Source: Synechococcus sp. NOUM97013 (lineage in GTDB: Bacteria; Cyanobacteriota; Cyanobacteriia; PCC-6307; Cyanobiaceae). From it: 64,000 bases of DNA. Below the pieces are notes generated by a model. That model saw only the letters and a list, made by a program, of their open reading frames with translations. It was not told where the DNA came from and made no database searches. This document shows, in pieces, positions 22,227 through 32,834 of this stretch. The stretch covers positions 2,356,001-2,420,000 of the forward strand of contig NZ_CP047941.1 in NCBI RefSeq assembly GCF_014279815.1, in the 5' to 3' direction. The position numbers and the translations under genes were made by a program. Numbering within the stretch: the first letter of the stretch is position 1; each line of letters opens with the position of its first letter.

Positions 22227-23552
22227 TCACTCAGTCTGGGCCAGATCCAAGTGTCCTGCCTCCGCCAGCGCCTCCAGCGCACGCATCAGCGCCAGCTCCA
22301 CATGGGCCCGGTGGGTTCCTCCCTGCACATAAAGATTGAACGGCTCTCGCAGGGGTGCATCGGCGGAGAACTCACTGGTGCTGCCATCGATGAAGGTGCC
22401 ACCGGCCATCACCAGATCACTGGCATACCCCGGCATCGCAGCGGGCACCGGATCCAGATAGGAACCAACCGGTGAACACGCCTGGAACGCGCGGCAGATC
22501 AGCTTGAGCGGCTCAGGGCTGCCGAGCTGCACCGCCTGAATCAGATCACCGCGCTGGGCACCGGCGGCGGGCTGCACCGCATAGCCCAGGTCCGCAAACA
22601 CACCAGCCACCAGATCAGCGCCAATCAACGCTTCCGTCACCATCTGTGGTGCCAGAAACAGCCCCTGCAACAGCAGACGATGCAGGTCAAAACCGGTGCC
22701 GCCCTCACTGCCGATCCCCGGCGCTGTCAGGCGGCAGCAGGCCTGTTCCACAAGATCAGCGCGCCCAGCCACGTAACCGCCAGCGGGTGCAATCGTGCCG
22801 CCGAGGTTCTTGATCAACGAGCCCGCCACCAGATCCGCCCCCACATCACAGGGCTCCTGCGGCTCCACCAGCTCGCCGTAGCAGTTGTCCACGAAGCACA
22901 CGCAGTCGGGCTGGCGGGCATGAATCCGGGCGCACAGCTGGCCGATCGCGTCGACGGTGAGGGAAGGGCGCCAGCTGTAGCCACAGCTGCGTTGGATCAG
23001 GATCAGGCGACGCGGTTGCTCCAGGGCCTGATCGAGTGCCTGGAGATCCACGGCACCGTCTGCGGTGAGCAGCAGTTCGTCGTAAGCGACGCCGAACTCC
23101 TTCAGCGACCCCTGTCCCTCCCCGCGCAGACCGATCACTTCCTCCAGCGTGTCGTAGGGACGACCGGTAATCGACAACATCTGATCTCCAGGCCGCAGAA
23201 CACCGAACAAGGCGGCGGCGATGGCATGGGTGCCACTGACGAATTGCAGCCGCACCGCTGCCGCTTCAGCACCCAGGACGCGCGCGAACACACGGTCGAT
23301 CACCTCACGCCCCTGATCACCGTGGCCATAACCACTCACCGAAGCGAAGTGCTGCGTGCCCACCCGCTCGGCGGCCAATGCATCCAGAACCTTCTGCAGG
23401 CGCAGCGTCACTTCCGCCGTGCGCTGACGGGCCAGGGGCTCCAAACGGTCACGTACCGCCAGCACATGACGTTGGGCAAATGCCTTTGCCTCGCTGGGAT
23501 CCATCCGCTTGGCAACGGTGTTGACGCCCTGCCCTTCTGAAACTTGTGCCAT
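22227..23552 (-). CDS. PLP-dependent methionine gamma-lyase / aluminium-resistance family protein
   Basis: A protein of about 441 residues with the fold-type I PLP enzyme plan: FVSGTHAIAAALFGVLRPGD in the cofactor-phosphate region, CVCFVDNCYGELVEPQEP, and the cofactor Lys in LVAGSLIKNLGGTIAPAGGY. This matches the family annotated as aluminium-resistance protein or methionine gamma-lyase family, widespread in cyanobacteria and Firmicutes; the true substrate is unproven. The ATG at 23552 is chosen; the open frame goes 89 codons further but there overlaps the divergent desaturase gene and reads as shadow sequence. It is the first gene of the gcvH-gcvP transcript. Confidence 0.85.
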   Translation of the reverse strand: MAQVSEGQGVNTVAKRMDPSEAKAFAQRHVLAVRDRLEPLARQRTAEVTLRLQKVLDALAAERVGTQHFASVSGYGHGDQGREVIDRVFARVLGAEAAAVRLQFVSGTHAIAAALFGVLRPGDQMLSITGRPYDTLEEVIGLRGEGQGSLKEFGVAYDELLLTADGAVDLQALDQALEQPRRLILIQRSCGYSWRPSLTVDAIGQLCARIHARQPDCVCFVDNCYGELVEPQEPCDVGADLVAGSLIKNLGGTIAPAGGYVAGRADLVEQACCRLTAPGIGSEGGTGFDLHRLLLQGLFLAPQMVTEALIGADLVAGVFADLGYAVQPAAGAQRGDLIQAVQLGSPEPLKLICRAFQACSPVGSYLDPVPAAMPGYASDLVMAGGTFIDGSTSEFSADAPLREPFNLYVQGGTHRAHVELALMRALEALAEAGHLDLAQTE

Positions 23553-23667
23553 CAAAAAGCCGCGATGAACCTGCTGCGTTCTCTTACATTCACATTTCCA
23601 ACCGATTTGCCTGGGTCTCGGCTGTCGCCATTCCGACCGCAGCAAAAACGGTTCAAGGAGAAACTTC

Positions 23668-24579
23668 TTGGTTACCAGCACTCCGGCAGACACAAGCTCC
23701 ACCCGCGAACTGCGCATGCGCGCAGCGGTGATGGCGCCCCGTGAACGCCTGCCTCGCCGACAGCGCAAGTTCAAAGGCGGCACCACCTCCTTCATGGTGG
23801 TGATGCACGTGCTGGCCACCGTGGCTCTGCTGCCACGCTTCTGGAGCTGGCAAGGAGTGATCGCCCTCGGCGTCCTCTACTGGGCAACCGTGCTGGGTGT
23901 GACTCTTGGCCTGCATCGCCTGGTGGCCCACCGCAGCTTCGAGGTTCCGCGCTGGCTGGAACGCGTGCTGGTGGTGATGGGCACCCTGGCCTGCCAGAGC
24001 GGACCGATCGACTGGGTGGCGCTGCATCGCCATCACCACAAATATTCCGATCAACCCAATGATCACCACGACGCTGGCCGGGGCCTTTGGTGGAGTCACA
24101 GCGAGTGGATGCTGCACGACATCCCGGCACTGGAGCACAAAGAGCGCTTTGGCGGCGATCTGATCAACGACCGCTTCTACGTGTGGCTGGATCGCTGGTT
24201 CCTGCTGCTGCAGATCCCCATCGGCCTGGCGCTGTACTGGTACGGCAACGCTGCAGGCGTCCATGGCGGCGGCCTTGGCCTGGTGCTGTGGGCCATTCCA
24301 CTGCGACTGGTGGTGGTGTATCACGTCACCTGGTTGGTGAATTCCGCCACGCACGCCTTCGGGTATCGCAATTTCGACTGCCCCGACCTGTCGCGCAACT
24401 GCTGGTGGGTGGCGGTGCTGTCCTTTGGCGAAGGCTGGCACAACAACCACCACGCGTTCCCCGCCAGCGCACGCCACGGCCTGCGCCCGTTTGAGATCGA
24501 CATCACCTGGCTGCACATCCGGCTGCTGCAGAAACTCGGCCTCACCCGCCGGGTGCGTCAAGCGCGCTACCCCGGTTGA
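23668..24579 (+). CDS. Acyl-lipid/acyl-CoA delta-9 desaturase (DesC-like), copy 1
   Basis: A membrane diiron desaturase of 303 residues. The three histidine boxes are intact: HRLVAHRSF, HRHHHKYSD and HNNHHAFP, with two pairs of membrane spans between them. In cyanobacteria DesC puts the first double bond (delta 9) in membrane fatty acids, and its copies respond to cold. The start is taken as TTG at 23668 because AAGGAG lies 7 nt upstream; the next ATG is 16 codons in. The gene ends overlapping by 13 bp, tail to tail, with the putative regulator. A second, similar desaturase follows at 25348. Confidence 0.92.
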   Translation: MVTSTPADTSSTRELRMRAAVMAPRERLPRRQRKFKGGTTSFMVVMHVLATVALLPRFWSWQGVIALGVLYWATVLGVTLGLHRLVAHRSFEVPRWLERVLVVMGTLACQSGPIDWVALHRHHHKYSDQPNDHHDAGRGLWWSHSEWMLHDIPALEHKERFGGDLINDRFYVWLDRWFLLLQIPIGLALYWYGNAAGVHGGGLGLVLWAIPLRLVVVYHVTWLVNSATHAFGYRNFDCPDLSRNCWWVAVLSFGEGWHNNHHAFPASARHGLRPFEIDITWLHIRLLQKLGLTRRVRQARYPG

Positions 24580-25292
24580 GTCGCCGCGCGCAGCTCCCCT
24601 AAAAACGCTTCAGCGGTCTGGCCCTTGTTCCCCTCCAGGGCCAGATGCGTGGCATAAAGATCGAGGAACTCACCGTCGAGCTCCTCAGCGCTGTACTCCC
24701 TCAGGCCGGCCATCACCTCGGCAAAACGCTCCCGACGCTGGGGCTTGGTGACGGGATAGGCCTCCATCACCGCGTCTCGGCACTGCCGCCAGGCCTGCCC
24801 GCGGCAGAGACTGTCGGCCATGGCAGCACTCAGCTGAGCAGCCTCATCAGCATCGATGCGCCAGTCGAACCCAGGCGGCAGAGGCCCGAGGCCCACAAAG
24901 ATTTCCAGAAAGTCCCCAGCACCCAGGGGCGCCCCGTCGGAGCCCAGCAGGGGAACCGCACTTTCACTGAGCACCCGCAGCAGATCGGGGTGGACTTCAG
25001 CCAGGTGGGTGCGAATCGGCTCGACGCCTTGATGCAACACCCCATTGGCCTGCCCCAGGGCCAGAAACAGCTCAGGTCCTGGGGATGAAAGCTTGCCGTT
25101 GCGCAGGTTGGAGATCTGGGAGTTGTGCACACGGCCCAGGTCCAGCGCATCGGCCAAAGCGGGCAAGACCTTGTGGGACCAGCCATTGCGCTCGTGCCAC
25201 ACATGGATCAAGTGAGCCATGGCTTGCCGCCCCTCCTCGAGGCGCTGCCGGTAACCCTTGGTCACATGATCAGAACCACTCACGCTGCTCAT
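24567..25292 (-). CDS. Putative regulator with HTH-like N-terminus, between the two desaturases
   Basis: A protein of 241 residues, not matched to a named family. Residues ~20-80 look like an XRE-type helix-turn-helix: VLPALADALDLGRVHNSQIS, NLRNGKLSSPGPELFLALGQ. The rest is acidic and helical (YSAEELDGEFLDLYATHLAL). The gene points away from desaturase copy 2, and a perfect 16-bp palindrome lies 6-21 bp before its ATG, as expected for a self-regulating DNA-binding protein that also controls the neighbour. It converges with, and overlaps, the end of desaturase copy 1. A role in desaturase control is inferred from position only. Confidence 0.65.
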   Translation of the reverse strand: MSSVSGSDHVTKGYRQRLEEGRQAMAHLIHVWHERNGWSHKVLPALADALDLGRVHNSQISNLRNGKLSSPGPELFLALGQANGVLHQGVEPIRTHLAEVHPDLLRVLSESAVPLLGSDGAPLGAGDFLEIFVGLGPLPPGFDWRIDADEAAQLSAAMADSLCRGQAWRQCRDAVMEAYPVTKPQRRERFAEVMAGLREYSAEELDGEFLDLYATHLALEGNKGQTAEAFLGELRAATQPG

Positions 25293-25297
25293 TTCTT

Positions 25298-25313
25298 GAT
25301 ACGGATCCGTATC
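25298..25313. promoter_or_regulatory. Perfect 16-bp palindrome in the regulator/desaturase divergent region
   Basis: GATACGGATCCGTATC is its own reverse complement. It lies in the 55-bp gap between the putative regulator (start 25292) and desaturase copy 2 (start 25348), where it would cover promoter elements of both. A likely operator for the HTH-like protein. Confidence 0.65.
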
Positions 25314-25347
25314 GGATGTAATGTTTGGGCATCTAACGGATCAGACC

Positions 25348-26280
25348 ATGGTATCCAGCGTGATTGACACGCCGTCACCGCCCAGCCGCCCCGCAGCCTC
25401 GCACCGCGCCCTGCAGCTGGCAACCCTGCTGCACCAGCCGCGAAAGGGCGAACAGCCGGTGCCCGCAGAAAGCGGAAAAAACTGGGCCACGATCGGATTC
25501 ATGATCGTGATTCATGCCCTCAGCCTGCTGGCTCTGGCCCCCCGCTTCTGGAGCTGGCAAGCCGTGGCCAGCCTGCTGGTTCTCTATTGGGTCACCGCCT
25601 GCCTGGGCGTCACCATCGGCTATCACCGCCTGCTGTCCCACCGCTCCTTCCAGTTGCCGCAATGGCTGGAACGCTTCTTCGCCACCTGCGGAGCGCTGAG
25701 CTGCCAGCACGGCCCGATCGACTGGGTGGGGCTGCATCGCCATCACCACAAGTTTTCCGATACGGATGCTGATCACCACAACAGCCATCGCGGCTTCTGG
25801 TGGAGCCACATGGGCTGGATGTTCGAGCCGATCCCTGCCATGCAGGCCGTGCCTCGCATGACCGGTGATCTGGCCAAGGATCCCTACTACCGCTGGCTGA
25901 ACAACTGGTTCCTGGTGCTCCAACTGCCACTGGCCGGGCTGCTGTTCTGGATCGGCAGCACCACCGGCGCCGGCGGCTGGGCCCTGGTGCTCTGGGGCAT
26001 CCCCCTGCGCCTGGTGCTCGTTTATCACGTCACATGGCTGGTGAACTCCGCCACCCACTGCTGGGGCACCGTGGCCCACGACAGCGGCGACGCCTCTCGC
26101 AACAACAAATGGGTGGCAGCGTTGACGTTCGGCGAGGGCTGGCACAACAACCACCATGCCTTCCCCCACTCCGCACGCCACGGCCTTCAGTCGGGTCAGA
26201 TCGACCTCACCTGGGAGCACATCCGCCTGATGCGCGCCCTCGGCTTAGCCAAGAAAGTGCGCCTACCGGCGGCGTCGTAA
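25348..26280 (+). CDS. Acyl-lipid/acyl-CoA delta-9 desaturase (DesC-like), copy 2
   Basis: A desaturase of about 310 residues very similar to copy 1. The boxes HRLLSHRSF, HRHHHKFSD and HNNHHAFPHS are intact, as are the membrane spans (FMIVIHALSLLALAPRFWSW, LVLWGIPLRLVLVYHVTWLV). It has a longer, Pro/Ser-rich N-terminus. The ATG at 25348 is preferred; an ATG at 25321 would begin within the promoter region. Its separate promoter with the 16-bp palindrome suggests regulation different from copy 1. It is followed by rplI after 41 bp. Two delta-9 enzymes with different regulation are typical of temperature or light acclimation of membranes. Confidence 0.92.
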   Translation: MVSSVIDTPSPPSRPAASHRALQLATLLHQPRKGEQPVPAESGKNWATIGFMIVIHALSLLALAPRFWSWQAVASLLVLYWVTACLGVTIGYHRLLSHRSFQLPQWLERFFATCGALSCQHGPIDWVGLHRHHHKFSDTDADHHNSHRGFWWSHMGWMFEPIPAMQAVPRMTGDLAKDPYYRWLNNWFLVLQLPLAGLLFWIGSTTGAGGWALVLWGIPLRLVLVYHVTWLVNSATHCWGTVAHDSGDASRNNKWVAALTFGEGWHNNHHAFPHSARHGLQSGQIDLTWEHIRLMRALGLAKKVRLPAAS

Positions 26281-26856: not shown

Positions 26857-28275
26857 ATGGTGAGCGTTCCCATGACTGGTGCTGGCGGCGAGTCCGCCGA
26901 AGAGGGACGCCGCGGTTTCGGTAAAGGGCGCCAGCGCGAGGAGCCCAGTTTTGAAGCCCTGCCGGATTCGATTCCTCCCCAGAACCTGGAGGCCGAGGAA
27001 GCCGTCCTCGGCGGCATCCTGCTCGACCCTGATGCCATCGGCCGGGTGGCGGATGTGCTGCAGCCGGAAGCGTTCTATCTGAATGCCCACCGGGAGATCT
27101 TCCGCACGGCGGTGATGCTCCACAGCCAGGGCAAACCCACCGACCTGACGGCGATGACGGCCTGGCTGGCCGACACAGGAGCGCTCGAGAAAGTGGGCGG
27201 CAGTGGCCGGCTGGTGGAGCTGGTGGAACGCGTGGCCTCCACCGCTTCGATCGAGCAGGTGGCCCGGCTGGTGATGGACAAGTTCCTGCGCCGCCAGCTG
27301 ATCCGCTCCGGCAACGAGGTGATTCAGCTGGGCTTTGATCAAAGCCTGCCGATGGAGCAGGTGCTCGACAAAGCCGAGCAAACGATCTTTGCGATCAGCC
27401 AGGAGAAACCGTCGAAGGGACTCACCCCCACAGCGGAGATTCTGACCAGCACCTTCAACGAAATTGAAAGCCGCTCGCTGGGCACCTCGGTGGCCGGCAT
27501 CCCGGTGAACTTCTACGACCTGGACGCCATGACCCAGGGCCTGCAACGCAGTGACCTGATCATCGTGGCCGGACGCCCCGCCATGGGCAAAACCTCGATC
27601 GTGCTCAACCTGGCCAAGAACGTGGCACAGCTGCATGACCTACCGGTGTGCGTGTTCTCCCTAGAGATGAGCAAAGAGCAGCTCACCTACAGGCTGCTGT
27701 CGATGGAGGTGGGCATCGAAGCCGGTCGTCTACGCACCGGTCGCCTGCAACAGGAGGAATGGCCGCTGCTGGGGCAAGGCATCAACACACTGGGCCAGCT
27801 GCCGATCTACATCGACGACAAACCGAATTCAGGTGTGCTGGAAATGCGCTCGCTCTGCCGCAGGTTGATGGCGGAGCAGGGCAAGGAACTGGGCCTGGTG
27901 GTGATCGACTACCTGCAGCTAATGGAGGGATCGAGCCCTGACAACCGCGTGCAGGAGATTTCGCGGATCACCCGTGCCCTCAAACAAATGGCCCGGGAAC
28001 TGAACGTGCCGGTGATCGCGCTCTCCCAGCTCAGCCGTGGCGTGGAGTCGCGCACCAACAAACGACCGATGCTGAGCGACCTGCGGGAATCCGGCTCGAT
28101 CGAGCAGGACGCCGACCTGGTGCTGATGATCTACCGCGACGAGTACTACAACCCGGAAACCCCCGACCGCGGCATCACCGAAGTGATCGTGACCAAGCAT
28201 CGCAACGGCCCCGTAGGGACCGTGAAGCTGCTGTTCGAGCCCCAGTTCACCCGCTTCCGCAACCTGGCAGCCTGA
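26857..28275 (+). CDS. dnaB: Replicative DNA helicase DnaB (no intein)
   Basis: Hexameric 5'-3' helicase of the replication fork, 472 residues. The N-terminal domain (SIPPQNLEAEEAVLGGILLD) binds primase. The RecA-like domain has Walker A GRPAMGKTS near residue 246, VCVFSLEMSKEQLTYRLLSM, Walker B LGLVVIDYLQLM, and the arginine-finger region ending LSDLRESGSIEQDADLVLMI. The frame is continuous, so the inteins found in some cyanobacterial DnaB proteins are absent. Its last 92 bp occur again at 32911-33002 beyond the first giant gene, with only synonymous differences, suggesting that the present 3' end was supplied or copied during an insertion. Confidence 0.97.
   Translation: MVSVPMTGAGGESAEEGRRGFGKGRQREEPSFEALPDSIPPQNLEAEEAVLGGILLDPDAIGRVADVLQPEAFYLNAHREIFRTAVMLHSQGKPTDLTAMTAWLADTGALEKVGGSGRLVELVERVASTASIEQVARLVMDKFLRRQLIRSGNEVIQLGFDQSLPMEQVLDKAEQTIFAISQEKPSKGLTPTAEILTSTFNEIESRSLGTSVAGIPVNFYDLDAMTQGLQRSDLIIVAGRPAMGKTSIVLNLAKNVAQLHDLPVCVFSLEMSKEQLTYRLLSMEVGIEAGRLRTGRLQQEEWPLLGQGINTLGQLPIYIDDKPNSGVLEMRSLCRRLMAEQGKELGLVVIDYLQLMEGSSPDNRVQEISRITRALKQMARELNVPVIALSQLSRGVESRTNKRPMLSDLRESGSIEQDADLVLMIYRDEYYNPETPDRGITEVIVTKHRNGPVGTVKLLFEPQFTRFRNLAA
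28184..28275 (+). repeat. Direct repeat copy A: 3' end of dnaB
   Basis: 92 bp ending at the dnaB stop codon. It matches 32911-33002 at 87 of 92 positions. All five differences are at third codon positions and leave the protein unchanged (last 30 residues). Confidence 0.95.
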
Positions 28276-28388: not shown

Positions 28389-31300
28389 ATGAAAACCGCG
28401 TCTCGGGCCACTACCGCTGACACGCGTTGGGCAGGTGCTGGTCTTCAGAGCACGCGAGGACTCAAATCATGGCAACTGCATAAGAAAAAGAATCGACAAG
28501 CACCAAAACCGCGTTTGATCGTGACCACCCACGACATTCAGGGCGTTAACTGGCTGGAGGACTTAGACAAAGAGATCACCTGGATCCAAGGCGATCCAAT
28601 TCAAGAAATCTCGAAGCAATTACAGCAGAAACAACAAAAGGGAAATCCCGCCAGTGAGCTGCATATTGTTGCCCACGGCAGCGAAGGAGAGGTCAAGCTC
28701 GGAAATACCGTTCTCGATACAACCTATTTTGAGCATGCAGCGCAGCAACTTGAGGCATGGACTCTTGAAGCAATCTTCCTTTGGAGCTGCGAAGCAGGAC
28801 AAAACATAGAACTCAAGAAAACGCTCGAAAAACTGACAGGAGCTGATGTTTTCTCAAGCAAATCAGAAATCAACAGCCATCAATGCACACTTTTAAGCAG
28901 TGATGGCAACAAAGCCTCTCTCAGAACCCTAATCGGCAAAGAGAAACTTCAAGAATGGAAAGGCAATCTGTCGAACTCAGAAAACGATGAAAGCAGCGCT
29001 GTTCCAATCAGCGAAGCCGTCAGCAGTGAAACCATCAACACTAATGAATCAGGTTTCTCTGAAAACACAGGTCAAAAATTAGCTCTAGACACAGCATCAA
29101 GCAGCAACGAAACACCTCTCAATCCAGATTCAAGCAACAGCATTCAAACGACAGCTGAAGATTCGGATCCCGATTCGAGCCTGACCGGCAACGCTGAAGC
29201 ATCAACAAGCGAGGCCCAGCAAGCCACAACGAAAACACCAGTTACAGCGGCCAGCCTGAAGGAGCTGTGGCACCCACAACTCCAGGAGTGGGCGGCAGAG
29301 GGTGCGCTATCGGAGGCAGCCAACGAGGCCTTGCAGCTTGATTCCAGCGACCCATCGGACCAGCTGGCAGCCTTAGTCGTACGCCTTGCAGGAGGCGAGA
29401 CAAGTGACATTCCCGCGATTGAACTCCTGCAGCAAGAAGACATGAGCGGCGCCATGGGCGCCTACGCAACTTCGAATCAAACGATTTATATCAACAATGA
29501 ATGGGTTCAAACAGCCAGCAACATTGAAGCCATCAAGGTTCTGACCGAAGAATATGGGCATCATCTAGACGCGCTCCTCAACGAAACCGACACACCAGGA
29601 GACGAAGGCCAATACTTCGCACAATTACTAATCAGCCCCAGCGCAGCATCAAGCCAATCATTTGCAAGCCAGGCAAACGATAGCGGACAAATTTTAATCA
29701 ATGGCAAACCGATTAGCGTTGAATTTTCAAGCACTCAAGTTCTTGACGCAAACTATCAACAACTTGTTTTTGATCACACCAATTACGACACATCCTTCTC
29801 CGATCCCAATGGAAGTGTGGCTGCAGGGCAGTCAGTACTATTCAAAAATGTCATCACAATTAGCAGCCAAGCAGTTGATGCGCTTTACACAGTCCAGAGC
29901 ATCAATTCAAATATAAGACTCGACAGACTTGATGACGGCGGGGTCGACAGTGACTACATATCCACAGATCTATACGGCCTCGCATCAGGCGAAAAGACCA
30001 TCAACACTATAATCAGCTTCTATGAAGCCGGTACATACACAGGGGCAGGCACAGGCAATAAAGTCACCCTAGAGAATGTCGTCTTAAATACTTACGACAT
30101 TGACATCAATCAATATCAAGTATTTAAAGACTTCCAATCGTATGAATTAGCCAACAACACAGGGCTAACAGTTACCACTCAAAGCGACGGGTCAGTAAAA
30201 TTTGATGATGCCGGCAATCAAAATACAACTGGAACGCAAGACGAAGGCCGAGCAAGAATTTATTACGACGCTATCGATACATTTGAGATGCAAATGGGCT
30301 CAGATAACAGGGGGAGTATTTGGTTCTACCTCGACTTTCAACTAGGCCCCGCCTGGACTGGAGACACCACAACAACAGACACTCCGGCAGCAAACTTTAC
30401 TTGGAGCACTCGAAATTTAACCGAAGACGCAGCCAATGTTGGCTCATTCACCGAAACAGCCACCATTACCTTTAACAATCCAGGAACAACAATATTTGCT
30501 GGATCGAACGGCGACACAATCACCCACACCGCATCAAATGTTCCAGCCGGTCTGACCACTGTTGTCACACGTACATCCGACACAACCGCAACACTCTCGG
30601 TCACAGGGAACGCAACCAATCACACGGCATCCGATGACTTAAGCAATATCGAGCTTGAATTTGAAAACAGCGCCTTTGATGTGCGCTCAGTAGGCGCAAG
30701 CTCAATCACCGATGCTCGAATCACTAATTTCGGCCTGAGCTTCATAGATGACACAACTCCACCCAAAATTGAACTCTCCTCCAATGTCTCCACTCTCAAA
30801 GCGGGCGAAACGGCTGCCATAACTTTCACTCTCACAGAGTCTTCCAGCAATTTCGTCTTCACCGATATCGATGTCACTGGCGGTACGCTCTCTGATTTCG
30901 CTGGCTCCGGCACCGATTACACCGCCACCTTCACACCAGACACTGACAGCACCACCAATGGTGTGATCCACGTTGACAGCAACAAATTCTCAGATTCATC
31001 TGGCAATAACAACCAAGACGGGGCCGAATCCAATAACACCGTCACCCTCACCGTCGATACCGTTCGGCCCAAAATCGCCCTCTCCTCTGATGTCTCCACT
31101 CTTCAAGCGGGCGATACGGCTGCCATAACCTTCACCCTCACAGAGTCGTCCAGCGATTTCGTCTTTACCGATATCGATGTCACTGGCGGTACCCTCTCTG
31201 ATTTCGCTGGCTCCGGCACCGATTACACCGCCACCTTCACACCAGACACTGACAGCACCACCAATGGTGTGATCCACGTTGACAGCAACAAATTCTCAGA

Positions 31301-32834
31301 TTCATCTGGCAATAACAACCAAGACGGGGCCGAATCCAATAACACCGTCACCCTCACCGTCGATACCGTTCGGCCCAAAATCGCCCTCTCCTCTGATGTC
31401 TCCACTCTTCAAGCGGGCGATACGGCTGCAATAACCTTCACCCTCACAGAGTCGTCCAGCGATTTCGTCTTTACCGATATCGATGTCACTGGCGGTACCC
31501 TCTCTGATTTCGCTGGCTCCGGCACCGATTACACCGCCACCTTCACACCAGACACTGACAGCACCACCAATGGTGTGATCCACGTTGACAGCAACAAATT
31601 CTCAGATTCATCTGGCAATAACAACCAAGACGGGGCCGAATCCAATAACACCGTCACCCTCACCGTCGATACCACTACCACAACTCCAACGTCGACTTCT
31701 TCTTTTTCAACACCTTCAACACCTTCCTCAGAATCCTCAGATTCTCCCTCACCCACTCCACCTGCAACTCCAACTCCAACTCCAGAGCTCAGCTTAGAAA
31801 AAAGCGATCTTTTTCTCGTACTGGACACCTCCACGTCCATGCTCCGCAGCGACCGCAACAATCACAGCAAATTTCAAAGCCTGCTGGCACTAGAAGCCTT
31901 CGCAAAAGACGCTGAACGCGCTGGCTATGCATTTCAACGCCTCGACACCAACAACACCATCACGTCAGGACAGTTACTCCAAGTACTTACCGAACAAACC
32001 ACCGAGCAAGCCATTCAAGAGCTCAACAACTACACCATTATTGACAACCCCAACGATGATAAAAATGCCAAAGATCTCGACATTCACCTGATCACCTATA
32101 ACTATTACGTTCAACACAAAACCTTCACCCTTTCGCGCAGCAGTGCCAGCAGCGGCATCGACACTATGCAATCCATCCTGTCGCTCAAAATGGCAGGAGA
32201 AGGGCTTGGCAACTCAATCGAAAACAACAACCATTGGGAAGAGCTTGGCCTACCTAAACCCAATCAATACGACCTTAAGAAAGGCAATTCGGACAGACCT
32301 TCCAACCTCTATGGCGGCACCGAACTGCTCGGCGCCTTGGAAGGGCTCGACTATCTCCTTACCCAAAAAGCCAACGACCCCAACCAACAGGCTCTATCCA
32401 CCTCCATCGCCCTCGTTCTCGATGGGCGGCCGGTACGACGCAGCTGGTGGGACACCAGAACCGATTCAGCCTCCGATTCCATCATCGGCCAGGCCATTCC
32501 GCTACCGGAAACCCTTGGCAAGGAAGACATCACCACCTCAGGCCTCCGCTACGACAACCAAGGCAACCCGACCTTTCTCAAAAACAATCAGGGCCAATTG
32601 CAGTGGGAGGAAATGCAAAACGATCTCAATGCCGCCCTCAATCGTCTTGCTGAACTCTCCACCGATCCAGCCACCATGATTCAAGTGAATGCCTATGGCC
32701 TCAACAGCGCCGGTAGCACCTCCCTCAATGCCACCTATCAAGACCTCTTCTCCAACCAAATCTTCGACAACTCCGCCAGCAGCTGGAGCTACTCCCAGCA
32801 AACCATCAACTCAATGCAAGACTTCAACTTCTGA
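28389..32834 (+). CDS. Giant surface protein: DUF4347, GHH-motif domain, Ig-like repeats, von Willebrand A domain
   Basis: A protein of 1481 residues. Residues ~40-190 match DUF4347 (HIVAHGSEGEVKLGN and LWSCEAGQN, a His-Gly and Cys pair like that of caspase-fold peptidases), a domain found at the start of giant bacterial adhesins. Residues ~290-450 contain IYINNEWVQTA and VLTEEYGHHLDALLNETD then TPGDEG, metallopeptidase-like but without a standard HExxH. Beta-rich sequence follows, then three Ig-like repeats of 102 residues (793-1095), a Ser/Thr/Pro linker, and a von Willebrand A-like domain with the metal site DTSTS (~1139) and a later LDG. No Sec signal peptide and no RTX repeats are visible; secretion is probably by a type I-like route without a typical signal. 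Far more A/T-rich in wobble positions than dnaB, it is likely acquired. An adhesion or surface role is inference. Confidence 0.8.
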   Translation: MKTASRATTADTRWAGAGLQSTRGLKSWQLHKKKNRQAPKPRLIVTTHDIQGVNWLEDLDKEITWIQGDPIQEISKQLQQKQQKGNPASELHIVAHGSEGEVKLGNTVLDTTYFEHAAQQLEAWTLEAIFLWSCEAGQNIELKKTLEKLTGADVFSSKSEINSHQCTLLSSDGNKASLRTLIGKEKLQEWKGNLSNSENDESSAVPISEAVSSETINTNESGFSENTGQKLALDTASSSNETPLNPDSSNSIQTTAEDSDPDSSLTGNAEASTSEAQQATTKTPVTAASLKELWHPQLQEWAAEGALSEAANEALQLDSSDPSDQLAALVVRLAGGETSDIPAIELLQQEDMSGAMGAYATSNQTIYINNEWVQTASNIEAIKVLTEEYGHHLDALLNETDTPGDEGQYFAQLLISPSAASSQSFASQANDSGQILINGKPISVEFSSTQVLDANYQQLVFDHTNYDTSFSDPNGSVAAGQSVLFKNVITISSQAVDALYTVQSINSNIRLDRLDDGGVDSDYISTDLYGLASGEKTINTIISFYEAGTYTGAGTGNKVTLENVVLNTYDIDINQYQVFKDFQSYELANNTGLTVTTQSDGSVKFDDAGNQNTTGTQDEGRARIYYDAIDTFEMQMGSDNRGSIWFYLDFQLGPAWTGDTTTTDTPAANFTWSTRNLTEDAANVGSFTETATITFNNPGTTIFAGSNGDTITHTASNVPAGLTTVVTRTSDTTATLSVTGNATNHTASDDLSNIELEFENSAFDVRSVGASSITDARITNFGLSFIDDTTPPKIELSSNVSTLKAGETAAITFTLTESSSNFVFTDIDVTGGTLSDFAGSGTDYTATFTPDTDSTTNGVIHVDSNKFSDSSGNNNQDGAESNNTVTLTVDTVRPKIALSSDVSTLQAGDTAAITFTLTESSSDFVFTDIDVTGGTLSDFAGSGTDYTATFTPDTDSTTNGVIHVDSNKFSDSSGNNNQDGAESNNTVTLTVDTVRPKIALSSDVSTLQAGDTAAITFTLTESSSDFVFTDIDVTGGTLSDFAGSGTDYTATFTPDTDSTTNGVIHVDSNKFSDSSGNNNQDGAESNNTVTLTVDTTTTTPTSTSSFSTPSTPSSESSDSPSPTPPATPTPTPELSLEKSDLFLVLDTSTSMLRSDRNNHSKFQSLLALEAFAKDAERAGYAFQRLDTNNTITSGQLLQVLTEQTTEQAIQELNNYTIIDNPNDDKNAKDLDIHLITYNYYVQHKTFTLSRSSASSGIDTMQSILSLKMAGEGLGNSIENNNHWEELGLPKPNQYDLKKGNSDRPSNLYGGTELLGALEGLDYLLTQKANDPNQQALSTSIALVLDGRPVRRSWWDTRTDSASDSIIGQAIPLPETLGKEDITTSGLRYDNQGNPTFLKNNQGQLQWEEMQNDLNAALNRLAELSTDPATMIQVNAYGLNSAGSTSLNATYQDLFSNQIFDNSASSWSYSQQTINSMQDFNF
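30765..31676 (+). repeat. Three tandem 306-bp coding repeats (Ig-like domains)
   Basis: Repeats start at 30765, 31071 and 31377 with an exact 306-bp period. Copies 2 and 3 differ at a single base (C/A in the AAC/AAT-rich stretch near 31124 and 31430), while copy 1 is more divergent. This fits very recent duplication or ongoing gene conversion, and copy number may vary between cells. Confidence 0.93.

Follow-up and report, generated by a model that had tools for sequence, protein, structure and literature searches.

A candidate regulator and a conserved intergenic site beside a DesC4-type desaturase gene in marine Synechococcus and other picocyanobacteria

Gene organisation of the locus

The stretch of DNA considered here, termed the window, comprises 64,000 nucleotides of the genome of Synechococcus sp. 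NOUM97013 (NZ_CP047941.1, positions 2,356,001 to 2,420,000), a member of the marine Synechococcus group whose genome is a single contig of 2.55 Mb. A reading of the sequence alone had placed a regulator-like gene between two desaturase genes, an arrangement borne out by the sequence and its open reading frames (Table 1); the interval it gave to the desaturase pair (24567-26280) spans the regulator and desaturase 2, without desaturase 1. Both desaturases pass the PF00487 threshold, desaturase 2 with 74.2 bits against a cut-off of 29.7. The regulator and desaturase 1 are convergent, with a 13 bp overlap of their 3' ends. The desaturase 2 frame opens at 25321 and the start codon kept in relatives is 25348-25350, so that the divergent gap between the regulator and desaturase 2 is 25293-25347, the 55 bp originally proposed. 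The homology of many Prochlorococcus regulators begins at the GTG that is codon 10 here, 32 bp from the palindrome, and in many relatives this conserved GTG is the sole possible start of the regulator. Downstream of desaturase 2 lie rplI and then dnaB, and the order gcvP-gcvH-Met_gamma_lyase-type gene-desaturase 1-regulator-desaturase 2-rplI-dnaB is retained in most family loci. After dnaB, an open reading frame at 28389-32834 (+) encodes 1481 residues, with an N-terminal DUF4347 match and three nearly identical Big_12 (bacterial Ig-like) repeats.

Table 1. Coordinates of genes and candidate elements at the locus, numbered from the first nucleotide of the window
Feature	Position	Strand	Remarks
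Met_gamma_lyase-type gene	22227-23600	-	PF06838, E 1e-168; conserved neighbour of desaturase 1
Desaturase 1 (copy 1)	23668-24579	+	PF00487, E 6e-20; DesC3-type by distribution; neighbour, non-obligate in the unit
Putative regulator	24567-25292	-	ORF of 241 codons from ATG 25292; alternative start GTG 25265 (codon 10)
ATCA/GATCA box	25269-25273		Flanks the site; mean 1.53 bits
ATCA/GATCA box	25280-25284		Flanks the site; mean 1.07 bits; without a match in the window itself
Possible -35 element of desaturase 2 promoter, TTGATA	25296-25301	+	Spaced 15 bp from the -10 box; shares bases with the candidate operator
Candidate operator, GATACGGATCCGTATC	25298-25313	none	Perfect 16-bp palindrome, in most relatives an imperfect dyad; highest conservation within the gap
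-10-like box of desaturase 2 promoter	25317-25322	+	Consensus TATNNT (TGTAAT here); conserved
GATCA box	25339-25343	none	Right before the desaturase 2 start codon; mean 1.24 bits
Desaturase 2 (copy 2)	25348-26280	+	PF00487, E 1.8e-20, above cut-off; ORF open from 25321; DesC4-type by distribution

Association of the regulator with desaturase 2

Regulator matches at E <= 0.001 are present in 175 of 201 family genomes; matches also occur in 132 of 150 genomes of an order sample and in 26 of 242 genomes of a class sample, all 26 lying within the picocyanobacterial family. Among viral_contigs, seven stretches fitted a pattern, none of them encoding a regulator relative. At all of 130 loci from marine and freshwater genomes (110 marine-type, 20 more distant), the regulator has desaturase 2 as its divergent neighbour, whereas desaturase 1 is visible at 77 of the 130, a minimum, since contigs such as L033 end too early to show it; L105 was scored as lacking copy 1, though a diverged copy is present there in two pieces. 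The unit is the regulator with desaturase 2, rather than the desaturase pair first envisaged. A distant regulator relative (E 3.6e-10) lies at L245:1462-2145 (G062:C1:407363-407914), and larger genomes of the family contain several such weak matches with frames of similar length.

The two genes are also absent together. All 18 regulator negatives of the order sample belong to a single genus (g5), where desaturase 1 stands alone in 16 genomes and both desaturases occur in two, that is, copy 1 in 18/18 and copy 2 in 2/18; the loss was probably one event, and the genomes should not be counted as 18 separate tests. In the two g5 genomes that keep desaturase 2 (L146, L147), no sequence in the 300 bp upstream of it comes closer to the site than 5 mismatches in 16 positions. 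Two other genomes, G007 (71% complete, with a contiguous locus) and G049, carry desaturase 1 and rplI with neither the regulator nor desaturase 2 between them, and these look like separate losses because the neighbouring PLP enzyme of G007 is nearest to Prochlorococcus-type loci and that of G049 nearest to a freshwater locus. G049 does have a weak regulator match (E 4.4e-4), elsewhere or unplaced, and is counted among the 175. In G025 (95% complete), desaturase 2 is kept with no regulator match and with a degenerate site, whose arms can be read as shifted by one base; desaturase 1 is also absent from this locus (L213), and the interval from the PLP gene to desaturase 2, approximately 1 kb, matches neither missing gene. 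Copy 2 without the regulator is thus seen in three genomes, two without the site and one with a degenerate site. Fifteen genomes of the family sample, including G007, G025 and G049, were checked for desaturases: there was no desaturase match in G006, G022, G079, G122, G125, G166 or G172, and the findings in G059, G074, G094, G111 and G129 were distant matches, fragments of contigs or a regulator divided between two contigs.

These distributions (copy 1 in 18/18 and copy 2 in 2/18 g5 genomes) fit an identification of copy 1 as DesC3 and copy 2 as DesC4, a putative assignment made by distribution. In excerpts of published accounts, DesC3 is the core delta-9 desaturase of picocyanobacteria and DesC4 is absent from the warm clades II, III and others (PMC9361551, PMC7393227, PMC9124967), patterns with which the distribution of the two copies agrees. 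DesC4 has been linked to cold thermotypes in the literature, as far as the excerpts go, but CRD1 strains, some of them warm-adapted, carry desC4 (excerpt of PMC9124967), and it is therefore not strictly a cold-clade gene. According to similar excerpts, low temperature and other stresses strongly alter desC4 expression in strain WH7803 (PMC7393227), desC4 of WH5701 is up at high salinity (PMC12834511), and desaturases of Prochlorococcus MIT9301 are upregulated in the cold, with no specific mention of the gene at this locus (PMC10294614). Unlike the locus described here, the DesC4 genes in the excerpted accounts are mentioned with no adjoining regulator or operator (PMC9361551, PMC7393227, PMC9124967). 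A literature search, with subscription papers mostly outside its scope, found no account of the regulator or the site and no regulator proposed for desC4.

The conserved site in the divergent gap

The perfect 16-bp palindrome first noticed beside the regulator start is indeed present, 5 bp from the regulator ATG; the claim that it fills the gap was an overstatement because it takes 16 of the 55 bp. A perfect palindrome of this length is by itself ordinary, its location in the gap is not. Two perfect palindromes of at least 16 bp are present in the window (the other inside dnaB, 27331-27346) against a mean of 1.3 and a maximum of 5 in 60 simulated sequences, and the one in the gap therefore needs comparative support. 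The exact word, searched for throughout the 2.55-Mb genome as had been proposed, is confined to this one place. The possibility that the site is coding sequence was rejected: the frame through it is open in the window but is preceded by no ATG, GTG or TTG among the codons displayed, and a stop stands directly before the conserved GTG in rows from Prochlorococcus, for example L041.

Comparative support was sought in an alignment of the gap from 110 loci (L005-L114; 96 distinct sequences), which includes the window's own locus (L085) in all counts and from which a second copy of that locus (L001) had been removed beforehand. Rows were weighted by similarity, giving an effective number of 44.3; identical gaps are shared within no fewer than 14 marine pairs of loci, each pair probably representing a single genome entered twice. 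Mean information over the site is 1.40 bits per column, compared with 0.21 and 0.37 for the spacers beside it, and the site ranks first among the 68 stretches of 16 columns; this column-information measure omits the freshwater site of L134, which the dyad-pair count includes. A site in the same place before desaturase 2 is common to Synechococcus and Prochlorococcus, and so the lack of conservation that was to have counted against the sequence-only reading was not found.

The conserved object is, however, an imperfect dyad within the promoter, and not the perfect palindrome first taken as the conserved feature. Perfect symmetry is found in 5 of the 96 rows, at least 6 of the 8 dyad pairs are kept in 71, and the imperfect dyad GAT-N10-ATY (GAT on the left, ATC or ATT on the right) is present in 90, its two outer arms being the best conserved columns of the site. 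No compensatory change across the dyad was detected in a shuffle test with 2000 shuffles, the observed value being reached by 550 shuffles for 48 distinct marine sites, by 432 for 17 freshwater sites and by 72 for marine and freshwater sites combined. The inner part of the site is poorly kept in some relatives (for example GATAATATTACATATC). At the 20 more distant loci, the gap sequence closest to the window word differs from it at 2 to 6 positions, and the site is often RATNCGRATTCGTAYT, followed by TACYAT-like boxes.

The site lies immediately upstream of the conserved -10-like box (column frequencies T 0.93, A 0.89, T 0.73 and last T 0.97), and the -35-like columns 25297-25301 are conserved while 25296 is not. 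Part of the conservation of the site must stem from the promoter itself. The three flanking ATCA/GATCA boxes may be extra half-sites or further promoter parts.

Elsewhere in the genome, the best site scores at the other three PF00487 loci (L166, L167, L169) are 2.1, 5.0 and 8.2, against 25.0 for the desC4 site. The relaxed pattern GATAYGGATYCNTATY occurs without mismatch at the desC4 site and at one other place, a second near-perfect palindrome, GATATGGATTCATATC, at G000:C1:885107-885122 (L171:1501-1516), approximately 175 bp before a gene read as AbrB-like. In 29 loci of relatives of this gene (L184-L212; 21 genomes of the genus including the window genome, some copies being paralogues), no site comparable to it was found (highest score 15.5; the site in the window genome scores 24.7), and the AbrB-like gene is not counted as a target of the regulator. 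Relaxed matches number 12 forward and 10 reverse against 4 and 2 for a reversed-pattern control, an excess that makes other targets and a wider regulon possible.

The regulator protein

Among named records, those from Synechococcus are closest to the regulator, with WH7803 at 78% identity. The family was not recognised in the sequence-only reading and is absent from all libraries searched, and the window protein has no meaningful match in Pfam or NCBIfam; searches for sequence relatives in the PDB returned nothing meaningful and PHROGs nothing convincing. The same reading called the protein HTH-like, which agrees with a weak XRE-like helix-turn-helix signal in relatives: HTH_3 (PF01381) is weakly matched by 16 of 44 relatives (best E 0.014) and HTH_31 by 9 of the 44. 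In the window protein itself, Pfam at E <= 1 gives no HTH_3 and no TetR_N, MarR or response-regulator domain. A nearly invariant stretch, HNSQISNLRNGKL, looks like a recognition helix.

An AlphaFold2 model of the regulator is all-helical (mean pLDDT 86.8) and has no Foldseek match at E <= 0.001. Its VIA alignments are mostly to XRE-type DNA-binding domains, with a best Z of 6.7, values below 8 being such as may reflect a common helical arrangement; the predicted resemblance to XRE-type domains is suggestive. The C-terminal part, modelled alone (pLDDT 84.8), has no significant Foldseek match, and its top 12 VIA rows are all XRE-type (Z 6.9 to 3.8), after which Z drops to 2.8. The best of these rows (Z 6.9, rmsd 2.9) covers 75 residues, and five of the 12 are C.Esp1396I.

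It is conceivable, if doubtful, that these models reflect a regulator family restricted to picocyanobacteria in which one chain carries two XRE-like helix-turn-helix domains (approximately residues 4-90 and 137-231 of the 231-residue model), a built-in pseudo-dimer that would read an asymmetric, imperfect dyad, with DesC4 as its main target. Two different half-site readers would suit the absence of covariation across the dyad. Against such an arrangement stand the Z values below 8, which may signify a common helical arrangement, the empty Foldseek searches and a profile comparison of the two halves, in which no relationship, and hence no internal duplication by sequence, was found. The protein may resemble XRE/Cro-C1 regulators (HTH_3; structures solved for C.BclI, C.Esp1396I, SinR and DdrO) in its predicted helical N-terminal domain, in the weak HTH_3 signal of its relatives and in its local, near-palindromic candidate site. 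It differs from them in lacking HTH_3 at E <= 1 in the window protein, in its length (231-241 residues) and in a C-terminal half that matches no library searched.

Possible control of desC4

The conserved short site between the genes suggests that the regulator controls desaturase 2. Its most probable role, to which we assign a probability of about one half, is that of a dedicated, autoregulated repressor of the divergent desC4, with an XRE-like helix-turn-helix. The regulator would bind the dyad, which covers part of the spacer of the desC4 promoter together with the possible -35 element. The dyad centre is approximately 12 bp before the -10 box, which would correspond to about -23 if transcription starts 7 bp after the box, and 5 or 32 bp separate the dyad from the start codon of the regulator itself, according to the start chosen; the bound protein would exclude RNA polymerase from both genes. 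Cold, light, salt or the state of the membrane may be the signal that would lift repression and let DesC4 rise.

A divergent local regulator is a known type of system, and the features of that type are present here, namely a regulator divergent from its candidate target at 130/130 loci and a conserved dyad in the shared gap that overlaps the promoter. Known bacterial regulators of desaturases include DesT (TetR family), FabT (MarR family) and the DesK-DesR pair. The proposed local transcriptional control of lipid unsaturation is like theirs, whereas none of their TetR, MarR or response-regulator domains is found here (Pfam at E <= 1).

A sigma factor alone requires little sequence between -35 and -10, and the site, the most conserved stretch of the gap, has its best columns there. 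The repressor model is further favoured by the constant pairing of the two genes in marine and freshwater genomes, by their joint absence from 16/18 g5 genomes, G007 and G049, by the lack of a close site match where desC4 persists without the regulator (L146, L147), by the restriction of the site to one of the genome's desaturase loci, and by the HTH_3 signal in 16/44 relatives together with the XRE-type VIA rows. It is weakened by a dyad that is rarely perfect and does not covary, by an inner site scarcely kept in some relatives, by G025, with desC4 and a degenerate site in the absence of a regulator match, by the probably single origin of the g5 loss, and by the structural searches, with Foldseek empty and Z values below 8 that may denote a common helical arrangement.

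The same protein and site could instead serve activation, the protein binding between -35 and -10 and aiding a short-spacer desC4 promoter, as MerR-type activators do from this position. This is unlikely on the present evidence, even with a site lying in the spacer of the promoter, where only 15 bp separate the possible -35 from the -10, and with desC4 lost along with the regulator, not made constitutive, in 16 of the 18 g5 genomes and two others. Two genomes retain desC4 without the regulator or a close site match, so that desC4 can be kept without it, and the overlap of the site with the regulator's own start better fits autorepression.

Slightly less probable is a block made up of the desC4 core promoter and a site for some other regulator, with the neighbouring gene acting elsewhere and linked to desC4 for other reasons. 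The -10-like box and TTGATA within the conserved block, the right arm and -10-like sequence that G025 has without the regulator, and the excess of relaxed genome matches over control would suit such a block; the 130/130 adjacency and the repeated joint absence tie the regulator to desC4. Least probable is that an asymmetric promoter element with no dimeric reader has become a perfect palindrome here by chance, which would accord with the 1.3 or so such palindromes expected per window, with symmetry perfect in so few rows and with the want of compensatory change, and against which stand the 71/96 rows that keep at least 6 of 8 dyad pairs and the better conservation of the outer arms.

Implications for membrane unsaturation in picocyanobacteria

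Whichever way the regulator acts, it and the site give one protein and one 16-bp site with which control of desC4 can be tested. Distant relatives of the type found in L245 could reveal the role of the wider family. Many Prochlorococcus, with their small genomes, retain the pair of regulator and desC4; most of g5 lacks it, which makes this genus a natural contrast for studying how one probable control of membrane unsaturation was given up.
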